Source of the DNA: a bacterium
GTDB lineage: Bacteria; Planctomycetota; UBA11346
NCBI GenBank assembly: GCA_020049615.1
Contig: JAIFKN010000302.1
Span: 1 to 9,779, forward strand
Direction of reading: 5' to 3'
Length of the DNA stretch: 9,779 nucleotides
Below are positions 1 to 9,779 of this stretch, piece after piece. Within the stretch, counting starts at the first letter, position 1. Each line of letters opens with the position of its first letter. The notes beneath the pieces were generated by a model that was given only the letters and a program-made list of their open reading frames with translations, was not told where the DNA came from and ran no database searches. A program made the translations under genes and the position numbers.

Positions 1-60
1 AGGATCGACCTGCGCGTGCTGGTGACCTTGCGGGGAACTTCCGCCGTATATCCTCGCCAG

Positions 61-1782
61 ATGCCCATGGCATCCGAACCGACCCTGTTCCGTCCCGCCC
101 TGCTGCGCAGCCTGCGCTCCGGCTACACCCGCAAGGACCTGCTCGCCGACGTCTTCGCCGGACTGCTCGTCGGGGTGGTGGCCCTGCCGCTGTCCATGGG
201 TCTGGCCATCGCCTCGGGAGCGACGGCCGAACAAGGACTGTACGTCGCCATCATCGGCGGCCTGCTGATCAGCATCTTCGGCGGCTCGCGGGTGCAGGTC
301 GGCGGGCCGGCCGGCGCCTTCGTCGGGCTGTGCGCCGCAGCCGCCGCCGGAACCGGCGTCGGCCTGTTCGGCCTGTCGGTCGCGACCTTCATCGCCGGCG
401 GTATGATCCTGCTGATGGGGCTTATGCGGCTGGGCAGCGCGATCACCTTCATCCCGGTGCCCGTGGTCATCGGCTTCACCACCGGCATCGCCATTACCAT
501 CGCCAGCACCCAGTTGGCGCCGATGCTGGGGCTCGCCGCCGGGAGCCAGGAGCACGTCACCGAACGCATCCAGGTGGTGTGGGCCGGGCGCGAGTCCGCG
601 AGCTGGCTGCCGGTGGCGGCCTGCGCCGCCACCATGGCGATCATCCTCGGCCTGCGGCGTTGGAAGCCGCTGCTGCCTGGGGCGATCATCGCCGTCACCG
701 CGGTGACGTTGATCTCCGTGGCGCTTGGTCTGGAGGGGACCGGTCCGGATCATCTGGCGACCATCGGGGCGATTCCGAACTCCCCGCCGCTGCCGCACCT
801 GCCGGGCATGTACGACGGGCAGGGCTGGTCGTTCGGCGCCTGGTGGGCCAGATTGACCGATCCGGGCATGGATTGGGAGAAGATCTTGACCCTGTCCGGT
901 ACGATCGCCCTGCTGGGTTCGATCGAGAGCCTGCTGTCGGCGGTGGTCGCCGACGGCATGTGCGGCGACCGCCACGATTCCAATACCGAGCTGATCGGCC
1001 AGGGCATCGCCAACCTGGTGGTGCCGTTCTTCGGCGTCCTCCCCGCCACCGGGGTCATCGCCCGCACCTCGACCAACATCCGCGCCGGGGCGCGCAGCCC
1101 GGTGGCCGGCATCGTCCACGCGCTGGTCGTGCTGCTGATCCTGGTCGCCCTGGCGCCGCTGGTGAAGCACATCCCCAACGCCTGCCTGGCCGGCGTGCTG
1201 CTGGTGGTGTGCTGGTACATGGCCGAGCTGCGCCACTGGCCGCACATCCTGCGCGCTGGACGCAGCGACGCGTTCCTGCTGCCGCTCGCCGCCGGACTGA
1301 CCGTGTTCGCCGGACTGCCGACCGCGGTCTTCACCGGCGTGGTCCTGGCGATGTTCTTCTTCGTCCGGCGCATGAGCGAAGCGACCCAGATCGAACGCCG
1401 CGCGGCCGACAGCGGGGCTGAATCCGAACGGGCACCGGAGCTGCCGCCCGGAGTCGAGGTCTATGATGTGCGCGGGCCGTTCTTCTTCGGCGCGGCCACC
1501 CTGATCCGCGACATCGACAGCCAGATGGGCAGCGCGCCGCGGGCGTTGATCCTGCGCCTGCGCAACGTGCCGTTCATCGACGCCACCGCCGCGTTCAGCC
1601 TGCGCGAACTGCACCGTTCATGCAGCAAGCGCGGAGCCGAGCTCCTGCTGTCGGACTGCCACACCCGTCCGCTCGCCGACCTCGAACGGCACGGCCTGCT
1701 CGCCGAACTCGGCGAAGAGCGGATCTTCGGCAGCTACGAAGGTGCGCTGGCTCATGCCGCGGCGCTCGGCGGCAAGCCATGA
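61..1782 (+). CDS. SulP/SLC26-family anion transporter with C-terminal STAS domain
   Basis: This is an inner-membrane permease of the SulP family, whose members move sulphate, bicarbonate or other anions, usually with Na+ or H+. From ATG 61 the protein has 573 residues, a normal family length. Residues about 20-440 are a run of hydrophobic segments and include the family's early conserved stretch, with GLY at about 59-61 and GGPAGAF at 81-87. After a short charged linker, residues about 465-570 form a STAS domain with the FIDAT motif at 505-509. Starts at GTG 16 or ATG 67 are also in frame. I prefer 61 or 67 because the transmembrane domain begins soon after and residues before 61 look unlike the family; no Shine-Dalgarno decides it. 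The stop overlaps the next start as ATGA (1779-1782), so the two genes are probably co-translated. Substrate is unknown: sulphate is tempting given cysE downstream, but bicarbonate is equally open. Family call is firm, substrate is not. Confidence 0.93.
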   Translation: MPMASEPTLFRPALLRSLRSGYTRKDLLADVFAGLLVGVVALPLSMGLAIASGATAEQGLYVAIIGGLLISIFGGSRVQVGGPAGAFVGLCAAAAAGTGVGLFGLSVATFIAGGMILLMGLMRLGSAITFIPVPVVIGFTTGIAITIASTQLAPMLGLAAGSQEHVTERIQVVWAGRESASWLPVAACAATMAIILGLRRWKPLLPGAIIAVTAVTLISVALGLEGTGPDHLATIGAIPNSPPLPHLPGMYDGQGWSFGAWWARLTDPGMDWEKILTLSGTIALLGSIESLLSAVVADGMCGDRHDSNTELIGQGIANLVVPFFGVLPATGVIARTSTNIRAGARSPVAGIVHALVVLLILVALAPLVKHIPNACLAGVLLVVCWYMAELRHWPHILRAGRSDAFLLPLAAGLTVFAGLPTAVFTGVVLAMFFFVRRMSEATQIERRAADSGAESERAPELPPGVEVYDVRGPFFFGAATLIRDIDSQMGSAPRALILRLRNVPFIDATAAFSLRELHRSCSKRGAELLLSDCHTRPLADLERHGLLAELGEERIFGSYEGALAHAAALGGKP

Positions 1783-3479
1783 CCCCCTGCCCGATGCAAC
1801 CGGCGCATCCGCCCGAGGCGTTCATCAACGTCCTCGGCGTGGTCTATCTGCGCCAGCGCACCAGCGACGGCGGCGACCTCTACCTCACCCGCTTCGGCCT
1901 GGAACACAGCCGCCTGCTGCAGGTCGAGAACTGGTGCGATCCAGCCTGGTTCACCGCCAAGCGCCAGCGCCTGCAGGGCACCAGCACGGTGTTCCGCGTG
2001 CCGACGAAGGAGGTCGACGGGCGCAGCCTCGACCTGGTGGTGAAGAACTGCCGCGTCGGCGAGGACGTGCCGCTCGACACCCACACGCTGCAGGCGTTCA
2101 TCAACACCGAGTTCAACAGTCCGTGGGAGGAGTTCGCCCTGGTCATGGAGCTGCGCGAAGGCCAGCACGGCCCAGCCGACCTGCGCATCCCCACCCAGGA
2201 GCCCCTCGCCATCTACGTGCCACCGGAGCGCATGCAGGAGTGGCAGACCGGGCGCAGCGAGGACCGCATGCAGCGGATCCAGCGTCGCCATCCCGGCATG
2301 GAGCTGGACATCCTCAAGCAGTACAAGCTGATCTACGCCTGGATCCCCGGCCGCAACGTGGTCGAGACGCTGGGCGACCTGGGCGCGCCGACCGAAGTCG
2401 CCGAAGAGCTGCCGTGGCGGCTCAACGAGCGCGTCCTCGGCGACATGGAGCAGAAGGGCTACACCGTCGCCGACATGAAGCCGGTGCACATCATCCTCGC
2501 CACCGGGGACCTGGCGAAGCTGCAGGCCGTCGGCAGCGGCGCCGGCCCGGCGGTCGAGGCGCTGGTCGCCAACCGCCGCTATTCCGTGATAGACTACGAA
2601 CTGCTGCTGCGCACCCCCGAGCACGAATCGCGGGTGCACCGCCGCCGTCGCCACGGCTACCTCGACGACTTGCGCCACCGCTTCGAGACGACCGAACTGC
2701 CAGCCCACCTCGCCCAGGTCGAAGTCCTGGACGTGCCGTACGTACACGGCCGGGTCGAGAGCACCGGAGGCCGGTTGTGGGTGGTCGGGCGCAACGGCCG
2801 GCTGTTCGACTATTTCCTGCCCGAGCGCTGGCGCCGCACGCCTGGCGTGAAGCTGTCGCAGTTGAACGACGTGCAGTACACCCTGACCAAGGACACCGTG
2901 CATCTGGTGTGGAAGACCTCGATGGTCGGTGAACTCCCGGCCGCCGGAGGCGAGGCGGTGCGCGAGCGCGGCTACAACAGCCCGTTCGAGGAGGCGGCGA
3001 TCTCGGTCGCACTCGCTGCGGCCGGCATCCCCGCCACCCATGTCCGAGCCATCTACATGACCGGCACGCGCAAGCTGGAGGCGAGCGAGGACCGCCGCCG
3101 CTTCGACTCGCACGCCCACCTGCTGACCGCCGATGGCACGCCGGTGCTGTGGGACAGCCACAACTACGTGCTGATCCAGGGCTATTTCAACGGCACCGAC
3201 GGCCAGGACGCCGATTGCGCCCGGCCGCTGAGCAAGCCGCTGGGCCTGGCCTCGGCGATCTGCGCCGGTCTGCTCGGCAAGGCCGAGGCCGAGGCGCTGG
3301 CCGAGGGCCTGCGCCGCCGGCTCGCCGCCGCCGGCTACGACGGCAGCCTGCTCGGCCTGCGCGACTTCCTCGTCTCGCTGGAGGACGAACGCACCCTGGT
3401 GCGCGATGCCAGCGGCCAGGTCGAGGCGCGCATCTGCGACTTCAAGCTGATCGGCAGGCCAGCACCCGTCCGGCGATGA
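1779..3479 (+). CDS. Divergent kinase-fold protein with internal duplication (putative)
   Basis: A 566-residue soluble protein that I cannot assign to a named family. Several stretches resemble protein-kinase/APH-like catalytic elements in the right order: LVVK with K89 as the possible beta-3 lysine, NSPWEE at 113-118 as a possible alpha-C glutamate, a hinge-like IYAWIPGRN at 185-193, ADMKPVHII at 231-239 like a catalytic loop (D232, K234, H237), and IDYE at 271-274 in the place of DFG. The second half repeats the first lobe: LVWK (K379) followed by VGE, NSPFEE at 400-405 and AIYM at 424-427, against AIYV at 144-147. A clear second catalytic loop is missing, although WDSHN (458-462) and CDFK (553-556) are weak candidates. 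It starts at the ATG overlapping the SulP stop (alternative ATG 1794), so it may act with the transporter. The activity, substrate and even the kinase fold are inference. No signal peptide or membrane segment is seen. Confidence 0.85.
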   Translation: MTPCPMQPAHPPEAFINVLGVVYLRQRTSDGGDLYLTRFGLEHSRLLQVENWCDPAWFTAKRQRLQGTSTVFRVPTKEVDGRSLDLVVKNCRVGEDVPLDTHTLQAFINTEFNSPWEEFALVMELREGQHGPADLRIPTQEPLAIYVPPERMQEWQTGRSEDRMQRIQRRHPGMELDILKQYKLIYAWIPGRNVVETLGDLGAPTEVAEELPWRLNERVLGDMEQKGYTVADMKPVHIILATGDLAKLQAVGSGAGPAVEALVANRRYSVIDYELLLRTPEHESRVHRRRRHGYLDDLRHRFETTELPAHLAQVEVLDVPYVHGRVESTGGRLWVVGRNGRLFDYFLPERWRRTPGVKLSQLNDVQYTLTKDTVHLVWKTSMVGELPAAGGEAVRERGYNSPFEEAAISVALAAAGIPATHVRAIYMTGTRKLEASEDRRRFDSHAHLLTADGTPVLWDSHNYVLIQGYFNGTDGQDADCARPLSKPLGLASAICAGLLGKAEAEALAEGLRRRLAAAGYDGSLLGLRDFLVSLEDERTLVRDASGQVEARICDFKLIGRPAPVRR

Positions 3480-3999
3480 CCAGGCCGGACAGGCGGACAT
3501 CGTGCGCCTCGCATGGCAGGTCGTCGAGCAGCTGGCAGGCGAAGCCGACGCCGATGGCCTGCAGGTCGGGTCGCTGCGCCAGCAGACGGTCGTAGTAGCC
3601 GCCGCCCTGGCCGAGGCGCCGCCCGTCGGCGGTGAAGGCGAGTCCCGGTACCAGGACGGTGGTTCCCGCCGGCAGTTCGGTCGAGGCGGCCTGCGTCGGA
3701 TCGGGCTCGGGGATGGCGAAGGCTCCCGGAACCAGCTGGTCGCCGTCGATGACGGTATGCCAGGCGAGGCGGCCAGGGCCGGCGACGCGGGGCAGGAACA
3801 CCGCGCGCAGTGAACGCCAACGCTCGCGGTGCAGGCTGGACAGGTCGAGTTCGTCGGGCAGGGCGGCGTAGCTGGCCGGCACACCGCGGACGAGCCCGGC
3901 GCAGGCCTGCGCCGTCGCCAGCGACTCGGCCGTGCGCTGCGCCGGATCCACGGTGCGCCTCCGGGCGCGCAGCTGCTGGCGCAGCGAAGCCTTGCTCAC
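3442..3999 (-). CDS. fau: 5-formyltetrahydrofolate cyclo-ligase (MTHFS)
   Basis: This cytosolic enzyme uses ATP to convert 5-formyltetrahydrofolate to 5,10-methenyltetrahydrofolate, returning a stored folate to one-carbon metabolism. The protein has 185 residues, typical for the bacterial enzyme. Diagnostic features are the basic N-terminus (K3, L6, R7, R11, R13-15) that binds ATP phosphates in this family, FAIPEP at 94-99, and the signature VPGLAF followed by RLGQGGGYYDR across 117-138. HDVRL at 166-170 is the usual end-of-domain motif. I chose GTG 3999 because it overlaps the upstream stop as GTGA (3996-3999) and puts the SKASLRQQLR sequence at the N-terminus. A longer in-frame extension back to 4131 lies inside the preceding gene and looks non-coding. 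The 3' end overlaps the convergent kinase-like gene by 38 bases (3442-3479). The assignment is secure; the symbol follows E. coli usage. Confidence 0.95.
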   Translation of the reverse strand: MSKASLRQQLRARRRTVDPAQRTAESLATAQACAGLVRGVPASYAALPDELDLSSLHRERWRSLRAVFLPRVAGPGRLAWHTVIDGDQLVPGAFAIPEPDPTQAASTELPAGTTVLVPGLAFTADGRRLGQGGGYYDRLLAQRPDLQAIGVGFACQLLDDLPCEAHDVRLSGLVIAGRVLACRSA

Positions 4000-4616
4000 C
4001 ACGTGACGATCTGGCTGCCCCAGGCATCGAGGGCGAGGCCGGCACGGTGCCCCGGCGCCGGGCCGTAGATGAAACCGGCGAGCGGCATCGGCGACTGCGA
4101 CTGCAGCACGGCGCGGCCAGGCCACAGCCACAGGCGTATGCCCGGGGCGGCCTGCAGGCGGCAGCCGAGGCGTTCAGCGATGAACAGCCGCAGCGGCTTC
4201 AGCGCCAGACTGGTCAGGCTGGCGAGATCCTCAGGGGCTGGCAGCAGCAGGCGGCCGTCGCGCAAGGTCGGGCAGTCGATCTCCGCCTGGGCGATGTCCG
4301 TCCCCCAACGCAAGGGGCCAGGACCGATCGGCATGCCGCTCCAGGCCAGGGTATCGAGCCATTCGTCCGGTGCGCCGGCGACGCCCAGCGCCGGCGGCAG
4401 CCCGGACGGGGCGGCTTCGGCCAACCAGCTGGCGCAGGCGGCGCGCAGTTCGGCCGGCGGTCTGACCTGACGCCCGGCGATCAGGGCATCGAGGATCTGG
4501 CAGCGCCACGAGGCGAGGAGCTCGGGATCGGGCGCGGCGGGCATGCCGGCATGGTCGCAACCTCCGCCGAGCAGTACAAGTGGTCGCGCTGGAGCCGGCG
4601 GTCCCGCGTCCATCAT
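3996..4616 (-). CDS. Hypothetical protein translationally coupled to the folate cyclo-ligase
   Basis: A protein of up to 206 residues that I do not recognise. It has no signal peptide, no clear membrane segment and no catalytic motif I can name. The middle is rich in Leu, Ala and Pro. The C-terminal third looks like alternating beta strands, with LWLWPGRAVLQSQSPM at about 153-168 and a final GLALDAWGSQIVTW, so a small beta-rich fold is plausible. Evidence that it is real is its open frame through a crowded region and the 4-base GTGA overlap of its stop with the start of the folate enzyme, which implies co-translation. The start is uncertain: two adjacent ATGs (4616 and 4613) give the longest form, and ATG 4544 would remove 24 residues. 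GGAGG lies at 4561-4565 but is 16 bases from ATG 4544, too far for a normal ribosome site. A folate-linked role is only suggested by position. Confidence 0.7.
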   Translation of the reverse strand: MMDAGPPAPARPLVLLGGGCDHAGMPAAPDPELLASWRCQILDALIAGRQVRPPAELRAACASWLAEAAPSGLPPALGVAGAPDEWLDTLAWSGMPIGPGPLRWGTDIAQAEIDCPTLRDGRLLLPAPEDLASLTSLALKPLRLFIAERLGCRLQAAPGIRLWLWPGRAVLQSQSPMPLAGFIYGPAPGHRAGLALDAWGSQIVTW

Positions 4617-4624
4617 GCTGCACC

Positions 4625-6661
4625 GTGGGCGCCATCATCCCCCTGTTCCTCGCCCTGCTCATCCTGCAGGTGCATCATGGCCTGCCGGCGCCGGCCACTG
4701 CGCCGCTGGCCCTGGCTGGCGGAACCGTCGGTCTGTGGTTCCTCGCCACCGCGGCGCTCAGCCGGCTGCTCATCCGCCGGGGTGATCGGCGCGCCCTGCG
4801 CGTGGCCGAACTCGCCGCCCAGGGCGCCAGCCTGGGACTGCTGCTGTGGCTGTGCCGCGAGCAGGGCTGGGCGGCCTGGGCCCCGGGCTGGGTCGTGGGA
4901 CTGGCCCCCTGGCTGCTGATGCAGGTCGCGTGGTGGTGGAATGTGACGCCGGCGATCCGCGCCATCACCGGCGGTGCGTGGAGCCGTTCCGGCCTGATCC
5001 TGCACCACCTGCGCTTCGAGCTTGCGCCCGCCCTCCTCGTCCTGCCGGTCCTCGACCTCTGCGAATGGGCCGGCCGGCACCTCGGCACCCTGGCCTGGTT
5101 CAACGACGGCAATGACGGCCTGATCCTCTCGCTGCTCGGCGGCTGGGTCCTGGTGCTGGCGCTGCTCATCCTCCTGCCGCTGGTGCTGCTGCCGCTGTGG
5201 GGCGCCCGCCGCCTGCCGGAGGCCGAACTGACCCGCCTGCTGGCTGCTGATTGCGCCGGCTACGCCCGGCTGCGGGTCTGGAGCACGCCCGGCGGCCCGG
5301 TGCACAACGCCATGGCCATCGGCCTGGTGCCCGGACTGCGCTGGGTGCTGGTCAGCGAGGACCTGCTGCGCGACCTGCCGCCGGACCAGGTACGCGCCGT
5401 GGTCGGCCACGAGCTCGGTCACCACCGCCACGGCCATCTCAAGGCCTACTTGTGGTTCGCCCTCGCCGCCATGGTCGGCTCGTGGGGCGCGCTGACGATC
5501 CTGGTCGGATCCGCCGACGCCGCCGGACGCCCGCTGAGCATGGGCTTCGGATCCGGGGAGGAGCTGCGCGCCGGCCTGCTCTTCCAGCTGCCCGGCATCG
5601 ATGCCGTGCCCGGCGAAGCGGTGCTGTGGACGGCCCTGCTGACCTGCGCCGCCGTGTGCATCCGCCTGCTGTTCGGCCACATCAGCCGGGCGTGCGAGCG
5701 CGAAGCCGACATCGCCGGAGCCGAGGTCGCCAGCCCGGCGGCGATGGCCGGCGCCCTGCAGACGGTTGCGCGGCTGTCCGGCACTCCCGAGGATGAGCCC
5801 AGCTGGCGGCATCGTCCGATCCGCGAGCGCGTCCTCTTCCTGCGCGCCCTGTCCCGTGATCCCGGGCTGGCCGCCCTCCACCGACGGTACGTCCGCGACA
5901 TGCGCCTGGCCATCATCGCCGCCCTCGCCCTCCTCGCCGCCATGGGCGCGAGCCTGTGGCTCGATCCGTTGCGTGACCTGCGCCACACGCAGGACCCCGT
6001 CGGCCTGATCACCGCCTGGTCGGTCAAGGCGCCAGAGCTCGACACGGCCCTCAAGGCCGCCGACGCCGGCGACACCGGGCCGCTGATCACCTGGCTGGCT
6101 CGCGCCCAGCCCGAGGATCGCCAGAAGCTGGCCCTGCTGCACCTCAAGCTGATCGAACGCAGCGGCGGCACCGCCAGCGACGGCAAGCCGTTGCCGCCCG
6201 ATGACCGCACGCCGTGGCAGCTCCGCCACCGCTTCGCCGCCCTCGCGGTGACGCGCATGGAGGACACCGGCAGCCTCGGCCTGCTCATCGACAACGTCTA
6301 CGCCTACGGTCTGGTCGCCGGCACCGCGCGACCGTCGCCGCAGGACATCGAGCAGGCCCGCTCGGTGCTGCCGCGTCTGGAGACCGCCGTGGCGCGGGCC
6401 AGCGACCACAGCCTGCACGACACCATCGCCTGCGTCCGGTTCGTCAGCCGCGACCTCGACGGCGCCCGCCGCGCCTGGGAGGCGGCTCTGGCCAACCTGC
6501 CCAAGGACGAGCGCGCCAGCGAAGCGGAGCGGCAGACCCTCGCGTCGCTGTACCGCCGCCGCCTCGACGCCGCGACCGCCAACCTGGCGATCAACGCCGG
6601 TTCGCGCCCCGGCCAGCCCATCCCCCTCCCCCTGACCTTCCCAGTCGAACCCACGCCATGA
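4625..6661 (+). CDS. M48-family membrane zinc metallopeptidase with long C-terminal extension
   Basis: An integral membrane peptidase of the Ste24/HtpX-like M48 family, which cleaves membrane or misfolded proteins using one zinc ion. With GTG 4625 as start it has 678 residues. Hydrophobic segments lie at about 2-15, 27-50, 68-77, 87-105, 133-146 and 165-192. HELGH at 262-266 gives the two zinc histidines and catalytic glutamate, E360 in CEREAD is the expected third ligand, and NAM at 228-230 precedes the active site as in relatives. A SWRH...IRER stretch at about 393-402 is also usual in this group. One more membrane span is at 428-446. Residues 447-678 are soluble and helical, possibly TPR-like, which makes the protein longer than HtpX (about 290) and typical Ste24 proteins. 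GTG 4601 and GTG 4580 are alternative starts; 4625 leaves the first span intact and avoids overlapping the divergent gene. The stop overlaps the cysE start as ATGA. Confidence 0.9.
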   Translation: MGAIIPLFLALLILQVHHGLPAPATAPLALAGGTVGLWFLATAALSRLLIRRGDRRALRVAELAAQGASLGLLLWLCREQGWAAWAPGWVVGLAPWLLMQVAWWWNVTPAIRAITGGAWSRSGLILHHLRFELAPALLVLPVLDLCEWAGRHLGTLAWFNDGNDGLILSLLGGWVLVLALLILLPLVLLPLWGARRLPEAELTRLLAADCAGYARLRVWSTPGGPVHNAMAIGLVPGLRWVLVSEDLLRDLPPDQVRAVVGHELGHHRHGHLKAYLWFALAAMVGSWGALTILVGSADAAGRPLSMGFGSGEELRAGLLFQLPGIDAVPGEAVLWTALLTCAAVCIRLLFGHISRACEREADIAGAEVASPAAMAGALQTVARLSGTPEDEPSWRHRPIRERVLFLRALSRDPGLAALHRRYVRDMRLAIIAALALLAAMGASLWLDPLRDLRHTQDPVGLITAWSVKAPELDTALKAADAGDTGPLITWLARAQPEDRQKLALLHLKLIERSGGTASDGKPLPPDDRTPWQLRHRFAALAVTRMEDTGSLGLLIDNVYAYGLVAGTARPSPQDIEQARSVLPRLETAVARASDHSLHDTIACVRFVSRDLDGARRAWEAALANLPKDERASEAERQTLASLYRRRLDAATANLAINAGSRPGQPIPLPLTFPVEPTP

Positions 6662-7575
6662 GCCGCACCTCGCCCGAGCACCTCGACCGCATCGCCGCCC
6701 GGCTGCGCGCCACCTACGACCAGGCGCCGGGCATCAACGACGCCACCGCCGTCGCGCTGCCCGATCGCGAGAGCGTCGGCCTGCTCTCGCGCCAGCTGCT
6801 GTCGCTGCTCTTCCCCGGCTTCTTCTCCGCCGAGCCGGTGGTCGCCAGCCAGCTCGACACCTACCTGCGCTCGCACCTCGCCGCCCTCGAGGCGACCCTG
6901 CTGGAGCAGGTCGCGCGGGCGCTGCGCTTCCGCGCCCGGCGCGACGGCACCGAGGTCCCCGCCGGCACCATCCGCGACCTCGTCGCCGAGCTCCTGCTGG
7001 ATCTGGTGGCGGTGCGCGAACTCGTCATCACCGACGTCGACTGGGCCTTCTGCAACGATCCGGCCGCCAGCGAACGCGAAACCGTGGTGCTGTCCTACCC
7101 CTCGGTCGAGGCGGTATCGGTGCAGCGCTTCGCCCACCGCATGTACAAGCGCGGCGTGCCGGTCCTGCCGCGCATGCTCACCGAGCACGTCCACGGCCGC
7201 ACCGGCATCGACATCCACCCCGGCGCCGCCATCGACGAGAGCTTCTTCATCGACCACGGCACCGGCGTCGTCATCGGCGAGACCAGCCGCATCGGCAGGA
7301 AGTGCCTGCTCTACCAGGGCGTCGGCCTGGTGGCATGGAACCCGCTGGCCAAGAACGAGCAGGGCGAGCTGACCCGCGGCGCCTCGAACAAGCGCCATCC
7401 CGACCTCGAGGACCACGTCACCATCTACGCCGGCGCCACCATCCTCGGCGGCGACACGGTGATCGGCGCCCGCAGCGTCATCGGCGGCAGCGTCTGGCTG
7501 ACCCATTCGGTGGCGCCCGGCTCGGTGGTGCGGGTCGACGATCCCGAACTGGTGATCAAGCAGCGCAAGAAGTAG
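6658..7575 (+). CDS. cysE: Serine O-acetyltransferase (long-form, EpsC/SATase clade)
   Basis: This cytosolic enzyme transfers acetyl from acetyl-CoA to L-serine, making O-acetylserine for cysteine synthesis. The 305-residue protein has a helical N-terminal half (about 1-150) and a left-handed beta-helix of hexapeptide repeats (about 180-292). DIHPGA at 185-190 carries H187, matching the catalytic histidine of the family, and FIDHGTGVVIGE at 197-208 is the conserved second motif. RHPDLED at 246-252 follows a loop that is longer than in E. coli CysE, and YAGATILGGDTVIG and IGGSVWLTHSV are typical of the long SATases of Bacteroidetes- and PVC-type bacteria. It starts at the ATG overlapping the M48 stop, so it is probably co-translated with the peptidase; no Shine-Dalgarno is visible. 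The C-terminus (VIKQRKK) is basic. No cysteine synthase (cysK) lies in the window. The enzyme call is firm; why it sits with a peptidase is not clear. Confidence 0.95.
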   Translation: MSRTSPEHLDRIAARLRATYDQAPGINDATAVALPDRESVGLLSRQLLSLLFPGFFSAEPVVASQLDTYLRSHLAALEATLLEQVARALRFRARRDGTEVPAGTIRDLVAELLLDLVAVRELVITDVDWAFCNDPAASERETVVLSYPSVEAVSVQRFAHRMYKRGVPVLPRMLTEHVHGRTGIDIHPGAAIDESFFIDHGTGVVIGETSRIGRKCLLYQGVGLVAWNPLAKNEQGELTRGASNKRHPDLEDHVTIYAGATILGGDTVIGARSVIGGSVWLTHSVAPGSVVRVDDPELVIKQRKK

Positions 7576-7580
7576 GGACT

Positions 7581-7682
7581 CCTGGGACCGGCGAGCTGGA
7601 GCTGCCTGCTAACAGCGCGAGTGCGCTGTTCGTTGGGGTTTTCGGGGGAGGGGCGAACGCCGCAGCGCTCGTCGGTCCCAGG
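7581..7682 (+). repeat. Structured dispersed repeat, copy A, filling the cysE/fpr convergent gap
   Basis: A 102-base element bounded by an inverted repeat: 7581-7596 (CCTGGGACCGGCGAGC) pairs with 7667-7682 over 16 bp with one G-T pair (7591/7672). Inside are a perfect 8-bp hairpin, AACAGCGC/GCGCTGTT with a GAGT loop (7611-7630), and GTTCG/CGAAC (7628-7632/7654-7658) closing a G-rich loop with runs of 4, 5 and 4 G (7635-7653). GCGCTG (7623-7628) could instead pair with CAGCGC (7663-7668), which would exclude the inner hairpin. Bases 7581-7667 match copy B at 81 of 87 aligned positions. It starts five bases after the cysE stop and ends two bases before the fpr stop, so it could end transcription from both sides, although no T-run follows the stems. 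It carries no coding potential. Orientation is given as the + strand by convention only. Confidence 0.85.
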
Positions 7683-7684
7683 GC

Positions 7685-8539
7685 TCACCCCTTCCAGTAC
7701 TCCTCGACTAGGAACCCGCCCATGCCGAGCTGCCGCGCCGGCTCGCGCAGGTGGTCGATCATGCCCGGATTGCCGCACACCATCAGGGCTGCCGGCTCGG
7801 CGCGGATGAGGTCGCGCAGGTGCTTCTTGTCGACCCCCTTGGGCAGGCTGACCGGTCGCCGTGCATCGGTCGGCAGGTCGAACAGGCTGAGGAACAGCTC
7901 ATTGACCCGGCCGGCGCCGTGCTCGTCGCTCCAGCCGTGGCCCTCGTCGGGACGGCTGGCGGTGGTCAGATAGGTGAAGTCGAAGTCGGTCGAACGCGCC
8001 CGCGCGTAGCCCAGCAACTCGTCCCGGAAGCCGAACTCGTCGGCGTGGGCGCAGCCGTGCATCAGCACGACGCGGTAGCCGGCCGGCACGCCGACCTCGT
8101 GCAACCGGTACAGCGTACGCACCTGCCCGAGGAACGGCGACAGTCCGGTGCCGGTGGCGACCATGACCACGGTGCGGGCCTGGGCCTTGGCCAGGGTGAA
8201 CTGCCCCTTCGGCGGCATGATGAAGACGCTAGTGCCAGGCGCCGCCGCGAAGAGGTGCGGAGTCAGGGCGCCGCCATCGACTCGGACGATGTAGAGTTCG
8301 AGTTCGTCGCGCTCGAGCGGACAGGAGGCGATGGAGTAGGCGCGGGCGACGAAGCCCGCCGGCGTCTCCATGCCCAGGGTGACGAACTGGCCGGCCTGGT
8401 AGAGCGGCACCTGTCCATCCTCGAGACGGACGGAGAAGACGCCGAGGTGCTCTGGAGCCCGCACCGCCTTGCGGGTCAGGCGCGCCGGCAGCATCTTGGA
8501 CTTGAGCGCAGCGGCGGCGGCGGGATTGAGCGCTGACAT
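7685..8539 (-). CDS. fpr: Ferredoxin/flavodoxin-NADP+ reductase (Fpr-like)
   Basis: A 284-residue FAD flavoprotein that passes electrons between NADPH and ferredoxin or flavodoxin in the cytosol, often in oxidative-stress or redox supply roles. The FAD domain spans about 17-115, with GQF at 50-52 and RAYSIAS at 66-72, the flavin-binding R-x-Y-S motif. The NADP domain follows, with ATGTGLSPFL at 128-137 and VCGNPGMI at 254-261. The protein ends VEEYWKG, close to the aromatic C-terminal end of bacterial Fpr enzymes. No iron-sulphur cluster domain is fused to it. ATG 8539 is preceded by AGGA six bases upstream, the clearest ribosome site in the window. The N-terminal tail of about 16 residues (Ala-rich) is slightly long. 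It lies 72 bases downstream of the calcium-loop protein on the same strand and could be co-transcribed with it. The enzyme class is firm; the electron partner is not known. Confidence 0.94.
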   Translation of the reverse strand: MSALNPAAAAALKSKMLPARLTRKAVRAPEHLGVFSVRLEDGQVPLYQAGQFVTLGMETPAGFVARAYSIASCPLERDELELYIVRVDGGALTPHLFAAAPGTSVFIMPPKGQFTLAKAQARTVVMVATGTGLSPFLGQVRTLYRLHEVGVPAGYRVVLMHGCAHADEFGFRDELLGYARARSTDFDFTYLTTASRPDEGHGWSDEHGAGRVNELFLSLFDLPTDARRPVSLPKGVDKKHLRDLIRAEPAALMVCGNPGMIDHLREPARQLGMGGFLVEEYWKG

Positions 8540-8545
8540 GCCGGA

Positions 8546-8549
8546 TCCT
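8546..8549 (-). promoter_or_regulatory. Shine-Dalgarno AGGA for fpr
   Basis: On the minus strand AGGA ends six bases before ATG 8539, a workable spacing, and supports that start. It stands out because the other gene starts lack a clear Shine-Dalgarno match. The rest of the 72-base gap (8540-8611) is somewhat less GC-rich than the coding DNA and may hold a promoter, but I see no convincing -35/-10 pair and no terminator for the preceding gene. Confidence 0.45.
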
Positions 8550-8611
8550 AGCGCCGTACGCCGGGGGATGAAACGCGTAATGCAGGGACTCTCAGCGGCC
8601 GGGTCGCGCCA

Positions 8612-9607
8612 TCACGCCACCAGATCGACCTGGGCGACCGCGCCGGCCCGCCCATCGGAGGCGAGGAACACGCCACCGCGCCGCCCTACCGCCTGCAGGC
8701 CTCCGTCGTCGCCGCGGTGCTGGAAGGGCAGAGCGACCGAGGCGGTGGCGAGCGCCGCGACGCCGCCAGCTGACAGGCTGCTGAAGCGCAGGCCATCCCA
8801 TAGCTGCAGCCGGCCATAGACCGCATCCCCGCCATCGATCCAGCCGTTGCCATCGCCATCGAGCGCGGCGAGATCGCGGAACGCCTGACCGCTGTCGGCG
8901 CCGAGCAGCCTGCCATCGATGGCGAGGATGCGATCGGCGCCGGCCGTTCTGGCGACCGCCTCCATGACGCCATCGCGGTCGAGGTCGATGCGCGCCAGGT
9001 CGCCGGAGAAGCGGATACCGTCGCCGTCGAGGTCGAGGACCAGCGGATCCTTGAGTTGGGCGTCGCCCAGCGCCACGCGCACGCTGCGTTCCTCGATGCG
9101 GACGCTGCTCTGGCTCCAGTCGAGGCGGAAGGCCAGCGTGCTGCCATCATCCAGGGTCAGTTCGGCCTCGGCTCTGAGGCTGGCCGTCTGCGTCTCGACC
9201 GTGCGCTCATGCAGTTCGTACTCCACACCCCAGCCGACGCGCTGCGGCTGCGCGGCCTGCTGCTGAACCGCCGCGACGGCCTGCTGCCGATCGACCTGCA
9301 GCGCCTGCATCTTCAGGGCGAACTTCCGCGCCCCCTTGGCACCGAAGACCTTCTCCAGGATGATCAGCAGCTTCTCCAGTTCGGGATCGAGCTGCTCCTT
9401 GGCCGTCTCCGTCTGCTTCGCCTTGGCCGCCTGCTCCAGCGCCTTGGTCAGGCCATTGTCGGCCGAGAGGAGGAGCTGGCGTGGACGCTCAGCCTGCTGG
9501 CGCTGCGGTCGCTCGCCGGTCCACATCTCCAGGCGCTCGGATCGTTCCTGGCGGAACAGGCGGGTGCTGCTGCCGGACAGGGACAGATCGCTGGAGAGGA
9601 TCTGCAT
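8612..9607 (-). CDS. Conserved protein of unknown function with Asp/Gly-rich calcium-binding-like loops
   Basis: A 331-residue protein with no signal peptide or membrane segment. From memory it resembles a conserved hypothetical family common in gammaproteobacteria, which begins MQI..SSL.LS, has a variable Gln/Lys-rich middle, and ends with a GWIDxxDxxF/Y..L.LW block and a QVDL tail. Here the start is MQILSSDLSLSGSS. Residues 54-120 are strongly helical and charged, possibly a coiled coil. Residues 126-180 look beta-rich. Three acidic loops follow: DLDGDG (192-197), DLDRDG (208-213) and ALDGDGNGWIDGGD (248-261), the last close to an EF-hand/dockerin-type calcium loop. The end is AQVDLVA. ATG 9607 is chosen because it restores the family N-terminus; a longer frame to 9706 would run into repeat copy B. 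No Shine-Dalgarno is seen. Function is unknown; calcium binding is inferred from the loops. It precedes fpr on the same strand. Confidence 0.85.
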   Translation of the reverse strand: MQILSSDLSLSGSSTRLFRQERSERLEMWTGERPQRQQAERPRQLLLSADNGLTKALEQAAKAKQTETAKEQLDPELEKLLIILEKVFGAKGARKFALKMQALQVDRQQAVAAVQQQAAQPQRVGWGVEYELHERTVETQTASLRAEAELTLDDGSTLAFRLDWSQSSVRIEERSVRVALGDAQLKDPLVLDLDGDGIRFSGDLARIDLDRDGVMEAVARTAGADRILAIDGRLLGADSGQAFRDLAALDGDGNGWIDGGDAVYGRLQLWDGLRFSSLSAGGVAALATASVALPFQHRGDDGGLQAVGRRGGVFLASDGRAGAVAQVDLVA

Positions 9608-9654
9608 GGCACAGGATCGGCAGGTCAGAGCGCGGCTTGAGCCTGGGACCGACA

Positions 9655-9696
9655 AGCTCCAGCTCGTCGGCAAGGCACCGCCGACGAACTGGAGCT
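9655..9696. repeat. 17-bp inverted repeat (hairpin) inside repeat copy B
   Basis: Bases 9655-9671 pair with 9680-9696 at 16 of 17 positions around an 8-base loop; the single mismatch is C9663/A9688, which would be a G-U pair in RNA from the minus strand. The left arm can alternatively fold on itself: 9649-9658 pairs with 9661-9670 at 9 of 10 positions over a 2-base turn. The two folds share bases and cannot coexist. There is no downstream T-run, so this is not a standard intrinsic terminator. Confidence 0.75.
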
Positions 9697-9727
9697 GCCC
9701 TCTCACAGCGCGTGTGCGCTGTTCGTT

Positions 9728-9752
9728 GGGGTGGGGGTTTCCGGGGGAGGGG
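9728..9752 (+). other. Four-tract G-quadruplex motif in repeat copy B
   Basis: Four G-runs of 4, 5, 5 and 4 bases (9728-9731, 9733-9737, 9743-9747, 9749-9752) are separated by loops of 1, 5 and 1 bases, matching the standard intramolecular quadruplex pattern with four tiers. The G-rich strand is the template strand for the gene starting at 9607. Copy A has only three such runs. Confidence 0.6.
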
Positions 9753-9779
9753 CGAACGCCGCAGCGACGGGATACTGGC

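Follow-up and report, generated by a model that had tools for sequence, protein, structure and literature searches.

Is the pair of similar intergenic stretches in this 9,779-nucleotide piece of Planctomycetota DNA (hereafter the window) a local duplication, or do its copies belong to a dispersed family of structured repeats? A preliminary description had aligned positions 7581-7667 (copy A) with 9642-9766 (copy B) and favored a family. The pair is real and its two gaps measure 32 and 6 bases, as described, although identities recount to 80 of 87 rather than 81 of 87. The local alignment score of the pair is 118, against at most 55.5 in 185 pairs of random window segments. Gene coordinates bear out the differing contexts of the copies. 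Copy A fills the convergent gap between an ORF stop at 7575 and an FNR-like gene on the minus strand (7685-8539; Pfam matches to PF00970 and PF00175), and copy B, which reaches the window end, is situated on the 5' side of an ORF on the minus strand (8612-9706, counted from the first possible start; ATG at 9605-9607). The ORF ending at 7575, which has no Pfam match, reads as serine acetyltransferase-like.

Exact DNA patterns found nothing in genomic or viral contig collections, and relatives were reached by protein search. The FNR-like protein of the window is 84% identical to one encoded in the MAG maxbin.317 (L001, JALHRW010000087.1), a contig of which also matches window positions 21-7579 at 89% DNA identity over ~7.6 kb; this relative carries full copies of the element that we call X. 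The gap holding copy A (7576-7684) corresponds in the relative to ~2 kb (L001 4298-6342), in which a sigma-factor-like and a kinase-like gene can be read from the sequence.

As a family unit, the aligned 87- and 125-nt stretch had been drawn imperfectly. Judged from its sequence, the window repeat is a composite of Y arms, a small hairpin (W) and the start of a larger element, X, which is incomplete in both copies. The parts are as follows:

7581-7596, plus strand: left arm of Y in copy A, CCTGGGACCGGCGAGC, probably a terminal repeat of RAYT/TIRYT type, with its inverted partner at 7667-7682
7611-7630, plus strand: W of copy A, a small hairpin AACAGCGC-GAGT-GCGCTGTT, from folding
7632-7667, plus strand: truncated X of copy A, approximately positions 1-38 of 100, with 36 nt at 91.7% identity to the full copy L081
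7667-7682, plus strand: right arm of Y in copy A, inverted, which pairs with 7581-7596 in folds
9642-9700, plus strand: Y of copy B, with a CCTGGGACCG start and then a long palindrome, from folds and matches to pieces of genome G001
9705-9722, plus strand: W hairpin of copy B, from a fold
9729-9779, plus strand: 5' half of X in copy B, positions 1-51 of 100, the rest cut off by the contig end

Both copies run past the original alignment. Copy A extends to 7682 through the inverted arm of its first 16 bases; its match to model R2 of X is weak (7630-7702, E 0.037). Copy B extends beyond 9766, and its positions 9729-9779 correspond to R2 positions 1-51 (E 2.7e-8, 3' end cut), score 44.1 bits against model R1 (E 4.7e-9) and are 94% identical to L081 over 51 nt. 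Y, consisting of CCTGGGACC and then a GACGAGCTCCAGCTCGTC-type hairpin, opens both copies, and its relatives in G001 lie on contigs other than those bearing X. W (ACAGCGC/GCGCTGT) stands 5' of X in copies A and B and, by eye, otherwise only in L102 (G022) among 43 upstream flanks, 41 from relatives and two of the window. By eye, CCTGGGA and hairpin arms also lie beside Y1_Tnp genes of G018, a genome other than the window's, on both sides at L167 and on one at L176. A Y1 transposase gene flanked by such inverted repeats is the TIRYT arrangement of PMC3733652, and TIRYT terminal repeats would fit Y, the outer part of the window copies, and not X. In copy A, inverted Y arms close the unit 7581-7682, so that W and the fragment of X seem to be carried by a mini-element of RAYT type.

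With X as query, relative G001 yielded complete copies; in these, GGGGGAGGGGC and a distant GCCCCTCCCCC pair with each other. Of 23 genomes belonging to one Planctomycetota family, 10 gave an X match with model R1, built from five copies, and 13 with covariance model R2, which has 43 rows and found at least 71 matches at E <=0.01. Copies found per genome number at least 1 to 18, lower bounds in both searches, since the best 150 candidates per genome were scored of up to several thousand. Matches are 43-128 nt long, nearly all of them 92-128. Order- and class-level searches took in the same 23 genomes as the family search. In a phylum sample of 294 genomes, 12 had an X match at E <=1e-6, all 12 in the same family; this search took the best 13 candidates per genome under stricter filters, so the absence of X elsewhere is weaker than it appears. 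It regained 12 of the 13 family positives, G012 having no match that passed its E cut.

Among 4,227 Rfam models none matched at X in the window or at 12 X-bearing loci at E up to 1. A literature search among open-licence papers turned up none recognized as describing X, which is no proof of unpublished status. The proposal of a dispersed structured family without an Rfam match is supported for X, with its 71 matches in 13 of 23 genomes; the aligned stretch as drawn does not correspond to the unit of that family. One G001 copy (L122 1501-1600) lies 43 nt from an RNase P RNA gene (L122 1644-2021).

On the plus strand, X can fold into one long arm of four helices with a variable tip. Helix 1, usually 8-14 bp, is followed by an internal loop in which GA(A/C) often stands opposite four nucleotides, for example CCGA or CCAA (29 3x4 loops in 68 copies). 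Helix 2, of ~4 bp, leads to a symmetric 3x3 GNA/GNA loop, present in 57 of the 68 folded copies, and helix 3, of ~8 bp, to a 5' bulge of 3-7 nt such as ACAAT; the apical stem ranges from a few bp to 17. These loop counts, like the head and attC counts below, exclude the three of the 71 copies that are shorter than 80 nt. Loops of this kind are known to form sheared G.A pairs in both RNA and single-stranded DNA. A G-quadruplex of the 5' G-runs was also considered and set aside; several low-GC copies have two G-runs only.

In alignment A6, which was fitted to the structure, 25 of 28 pairs show changes on both sides and 92.2% of cells are paired. The covariation score is 0.437, versus 0.154 for shuffles and at most 0.081 for slid controls, in which pairing falls to 45-53%. 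The alignment holds one reverse-strand match of L102, kept for model R2 and for covariation and left out of the count of G-U and A-C cells. The stems had been described as conserved, with changes falling in loops; across the family this does not fit X, the stems of which change with compensation while letters of the internal loops, GNA/GNA among others, recur. Helices 1-3 contain 23 G-U versus 8 A-C cells, which favors the plus strand as the folded molecule; this is weak support, the rows being related and the alignment fitted with plus-strand pairing rules.

Copies of X are often found directly behind genes. Read on the strand opposite X, 25 of 71 copies start within 12 nt of a coding-like stop, versus 4 of 71 on the other side, and 23 of the 25 lie between -2 and +9; gene calls come from a GC3 heuristic, and one of the 25, L140 (-12), probably reflects a spurious ORF call. 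Three further copies abut RNA genes, namely tRNA-Asp in G023 (L142) and G018 (L224) and tmRNA in G012 (L238). The tRNA-Asp genes that X immediately follows at L142 and L224 belong to arrays of 35 and 19 tRNA genes, respectively. Eleven copies are inner units of X arrays. The other 60 are array heads. Of these, 28 adjoin a called stop or the end of an RNA gene, or 27 if the doubtful L140 is set aside, and 32 adjoin neither; five of the 32 have less than 150 nt of sequence on that side. In G019, G020 and G021, a called stop lies within 12 nt in none of 17 copies.

NCBIfam searches identified the upstream genes as encoding DnaK (L095, L144), GroEL (L135), GroES (L147), NusG (L137), bL25 (L141), AtpD (L117), RpoD (L108), GcvH (L126) and Hcp/TssD (L143). 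A peroxiredoxin-like upstream protein (L101) fell under curated cut-offs, and the others of the 18 searched gave weak or no names. X follows the same RpoD C-terminus in G003, G004 and G023. Where the following gene is groES, groEL or an ORF read, without family search, as rplK, atpC, ureG or leuD, it begins 10-106 nt behind X. X lies at dnaK-groES (G001, G005), groEL-groES (G023) and groES-groEL (G005), between nusG and a 143-aa ORF read as rplK (G023), and between atpD and a 138-aa ORF read as atpC (G015). Thirteen of 30 groES loci were readable, the other 17 being without the GroES motif used, and in the X-less genomes readable at chaperonin genes the gene ends are intact. Four of the genomes read have dnaK-groES without X, and unrelated hairpins behind dnaK there are strong in G007 (z -5.6) and G008 (z -8.7), modest in G022 (z -2.4) and absent from G014 (z -0.3). 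The strong hairpins behind dnaK stops are at loci L218 and L219, the modest one at L212.

Several loci carry signs of insertion. At L111, X sits within an open frame, directly after a signal-peptide-like start, with ~40 in-frame residues around it. None of the seven aligned homologues has these residues, and one of the seven is 95% identical in the remainder. By this comparison the L111 copy is an in-frame insertion, with the filled and empty sites generally expected of mobile DNA seen at the protein level only, in L111 versus the seven homologues. Direct duplications flank X at L140 (lepA start, 43 bp), L125 (lepA start, diverged) and L139 (dnaK start, 32 bp), both gene names being a reading of translated ends, and also at L121 (20 bp) and L235 (80 bp, close to where a contig ends). 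At L139, L140 and L125 the start of the gene so read is doubled around X and one intact start is left. The duplications at these five loci score 17-80, versus at most 14 in 413 control pairs. Altogether 12 of 70 scored copies exceed the control maximum, and beyond the five loci all of these are units of arrays or pairs; the other 58 have no flanking duplication above that maximum. Arrays comprise 2-4 units, head-to-tail. An unsystematic look noticed no target sequence common to X sites.

Small dispersed palindromes are best known from Proteobacteria, where their head is GT(A/G)G and their partner a RAYT. X resembles the REP and REPIN sequences of PMC2817692, PMC3116915 and PMC3733652 in being a short non-coding imperfect palindrome, mostly extragenic, with compensatory changes, and in lying close to the 3' ends of upstream ORFs, in tandem clusters that include flanks, with some copies intragenic. 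Unlike those elements, X is one arm of four helices, nearly always 92-128 nt long, with recurring internal loops; it has few copies per genome (at least 1-18) and is without a constant GT(A/G)G head, an inverted REP pair or a RAYT seen beside it. Of 68 copies, 26 have GT(A/G)G in their first 14 nt and 7 have GTAG. By eye, X does not have the REPIN layout of two inverted headed units around a spacer, its two ends being different. Y1_Tnp matches number 70 in 20 of the 23 genomes, and at the 30 fetched there was no convincing X (best E 0.45; flanks up to ~1.4 kb); G003 has X without a Y1_Tnp match. As the head and RAYT tests both failed, X is not filed as REP. GTAG/CGTC families are reported in Planctomycetes too (PMC3733652).

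Other small repeats offer partial likenesses. ERIC, NEMIS/Correia, RUP and RPE, as outlined in PMC2229807, share with X a length of ~100 nt, a stable stem-loop and some occurrences in frame in proteins; the same paper reports that ERIC affects mRNA stability. Terminal inverted repeats and TA ends characterize most small repeats in its table, whereas X shows neither of these; where X has flanking duplications, they range over 20-80 bp. X also departs from MITEs of DDE transposons, which have terminal inverted repeats and a target duplication of fixed length: its ends differ by eye, and its duplications span 20-80 bp.

Hairpins behind stops raise the question of whether X is chiefly a functional 3'-UTR or intercistronic RNA, guarding the upstream message from 3'-5' decay or setting a processing site between cistrons, with dispersal secondary. 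We regard this as possible if somewhat doubtful. It would fit the single orientation of X behind stops (25 of 71 versus 4 of 71), its position between dnaK-groES, groES-groEL, groEL-groES, nusG-rplK-like and atpD-atpC-like genes, the same site behind rpoD in G003, G004 and G023, and the two strong hairpins and one modest one among the four X-less dnaK-groES genomes, of which the fourth has none. The recurring loop letters and the G-U bias, however, point to the other strand, 32 of the 60 array heads lie away from a called gene end, and one copy sits within a reading frame. A family of transcription terminators would likewise account for a hairpin immediately behind stops and tRNA or tmRNA ends, but an intrinsic terminator pairs a G+C-rich hairpin with a T-run, and by eye the mRNA strand shows no regular T-run after the stem of X, short ones occurring in a few low-GC copies. 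X moreover lies within operons, with the next gene 10-106 nt downstream, and on both grounds we disfavor a terminator and consider it improbable.

Sites of the attC type form a single-strand hairpin with a variable tip and lie close behind stop codons. X shares these three traits, and integron integrases above cut-off occur in 10 of the 23 genomes, so X might be an attC-like recombination site or a remnant of cassettes from integrons in these bacteria. Yet X stands at core genes, has another structure and is without core boxes: RYYYAAC / GTTRRRY occurs at none of 68 copies (1 of 1,360 random places), a search with those boxes does pick out arrays of sites in G005 whose structure is unlike X, and X is absent from eight integrase loci and from eight larger, partly identical regions. 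We give this explanation hardly any credence. In G005, L254 and L255 hold integron integrases and arrays of attC-like sites ~92 nt long. A mere local duplication is very unlikely to explain the window pair, even though the entire composite is common to both copies, which lie 2 kb apart, for X, Y and a W-like hairpin are each present in relatives. For X itself, further copies found there by the covariance-model search lead us to reject local duplication alone, as the preliminary description had anticipated.

The explanation that we prefer, at about even confidence, is that X is a short non-autonomous mobile element acting through the hairpin of one DNA strand, as REP and REPIN sequences do. In its favor are the 71 matches in 13 of 23 genomes, the 25 of 28 covarying pairs, the GNA/GNA loops, the G-U bias toward the plus strand, the in-frame insertion, the flanking duplications, the arrays, the one-sided placement and the intact gene ends of the X-less genomes readable at chaperonin genes; counted against it are the 32 of 60 heads off gene ends, the 58 of 70 copies without flanking duplication above the control maximum, the GT(A/G)G head in only 26 of 68 copies and the lack of a convincing X at the 30 Y1_Tnp loci fetched. 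Under this explanation, a single-strand-acting endonuclease would recognize the plus-strand hairpin of X and favor gene ends, where X would be tolerated and may, as a hairpin between cistrons, protect or process the mRNA upstream of it; in the window itself, X seems to be carried within a second mini-element whose ends, the Y arms, are of RAYT type. The recurrence of X behind rpoD in three genomes and behind dnaK in two would suit either mobility or a selected function. X may plausibly serve as an intercistronic RNA hairpin, a role compatible with mobility and not exclusive of it.

In this one Planctomycetota family, X is structured and covarying, has no constant head and no RAYT seen beside it, and often lies behind gene ends, including those of tRNA-Asp and tmRNA. 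It raises a concrete question: what puts DNA exactly at a gene's end? The same question arises for integron cassettes. Tentatively, and with considerable doubt, we suggest that X may be the first recognized member of a class of single-strand hairpin elements that target gene 3' ends (stop codons, tRNA and tmRNA ends) through an enzyme that is neither a RAYT nor an integron integrase, and that have been repeatedly recruited as intercistronic hairpins in heat-shock and other housekeeping operons. The unrelated hairpins behind dnaK in some X-less genomes suggest a testable role for such hairpins in differential operon expression.
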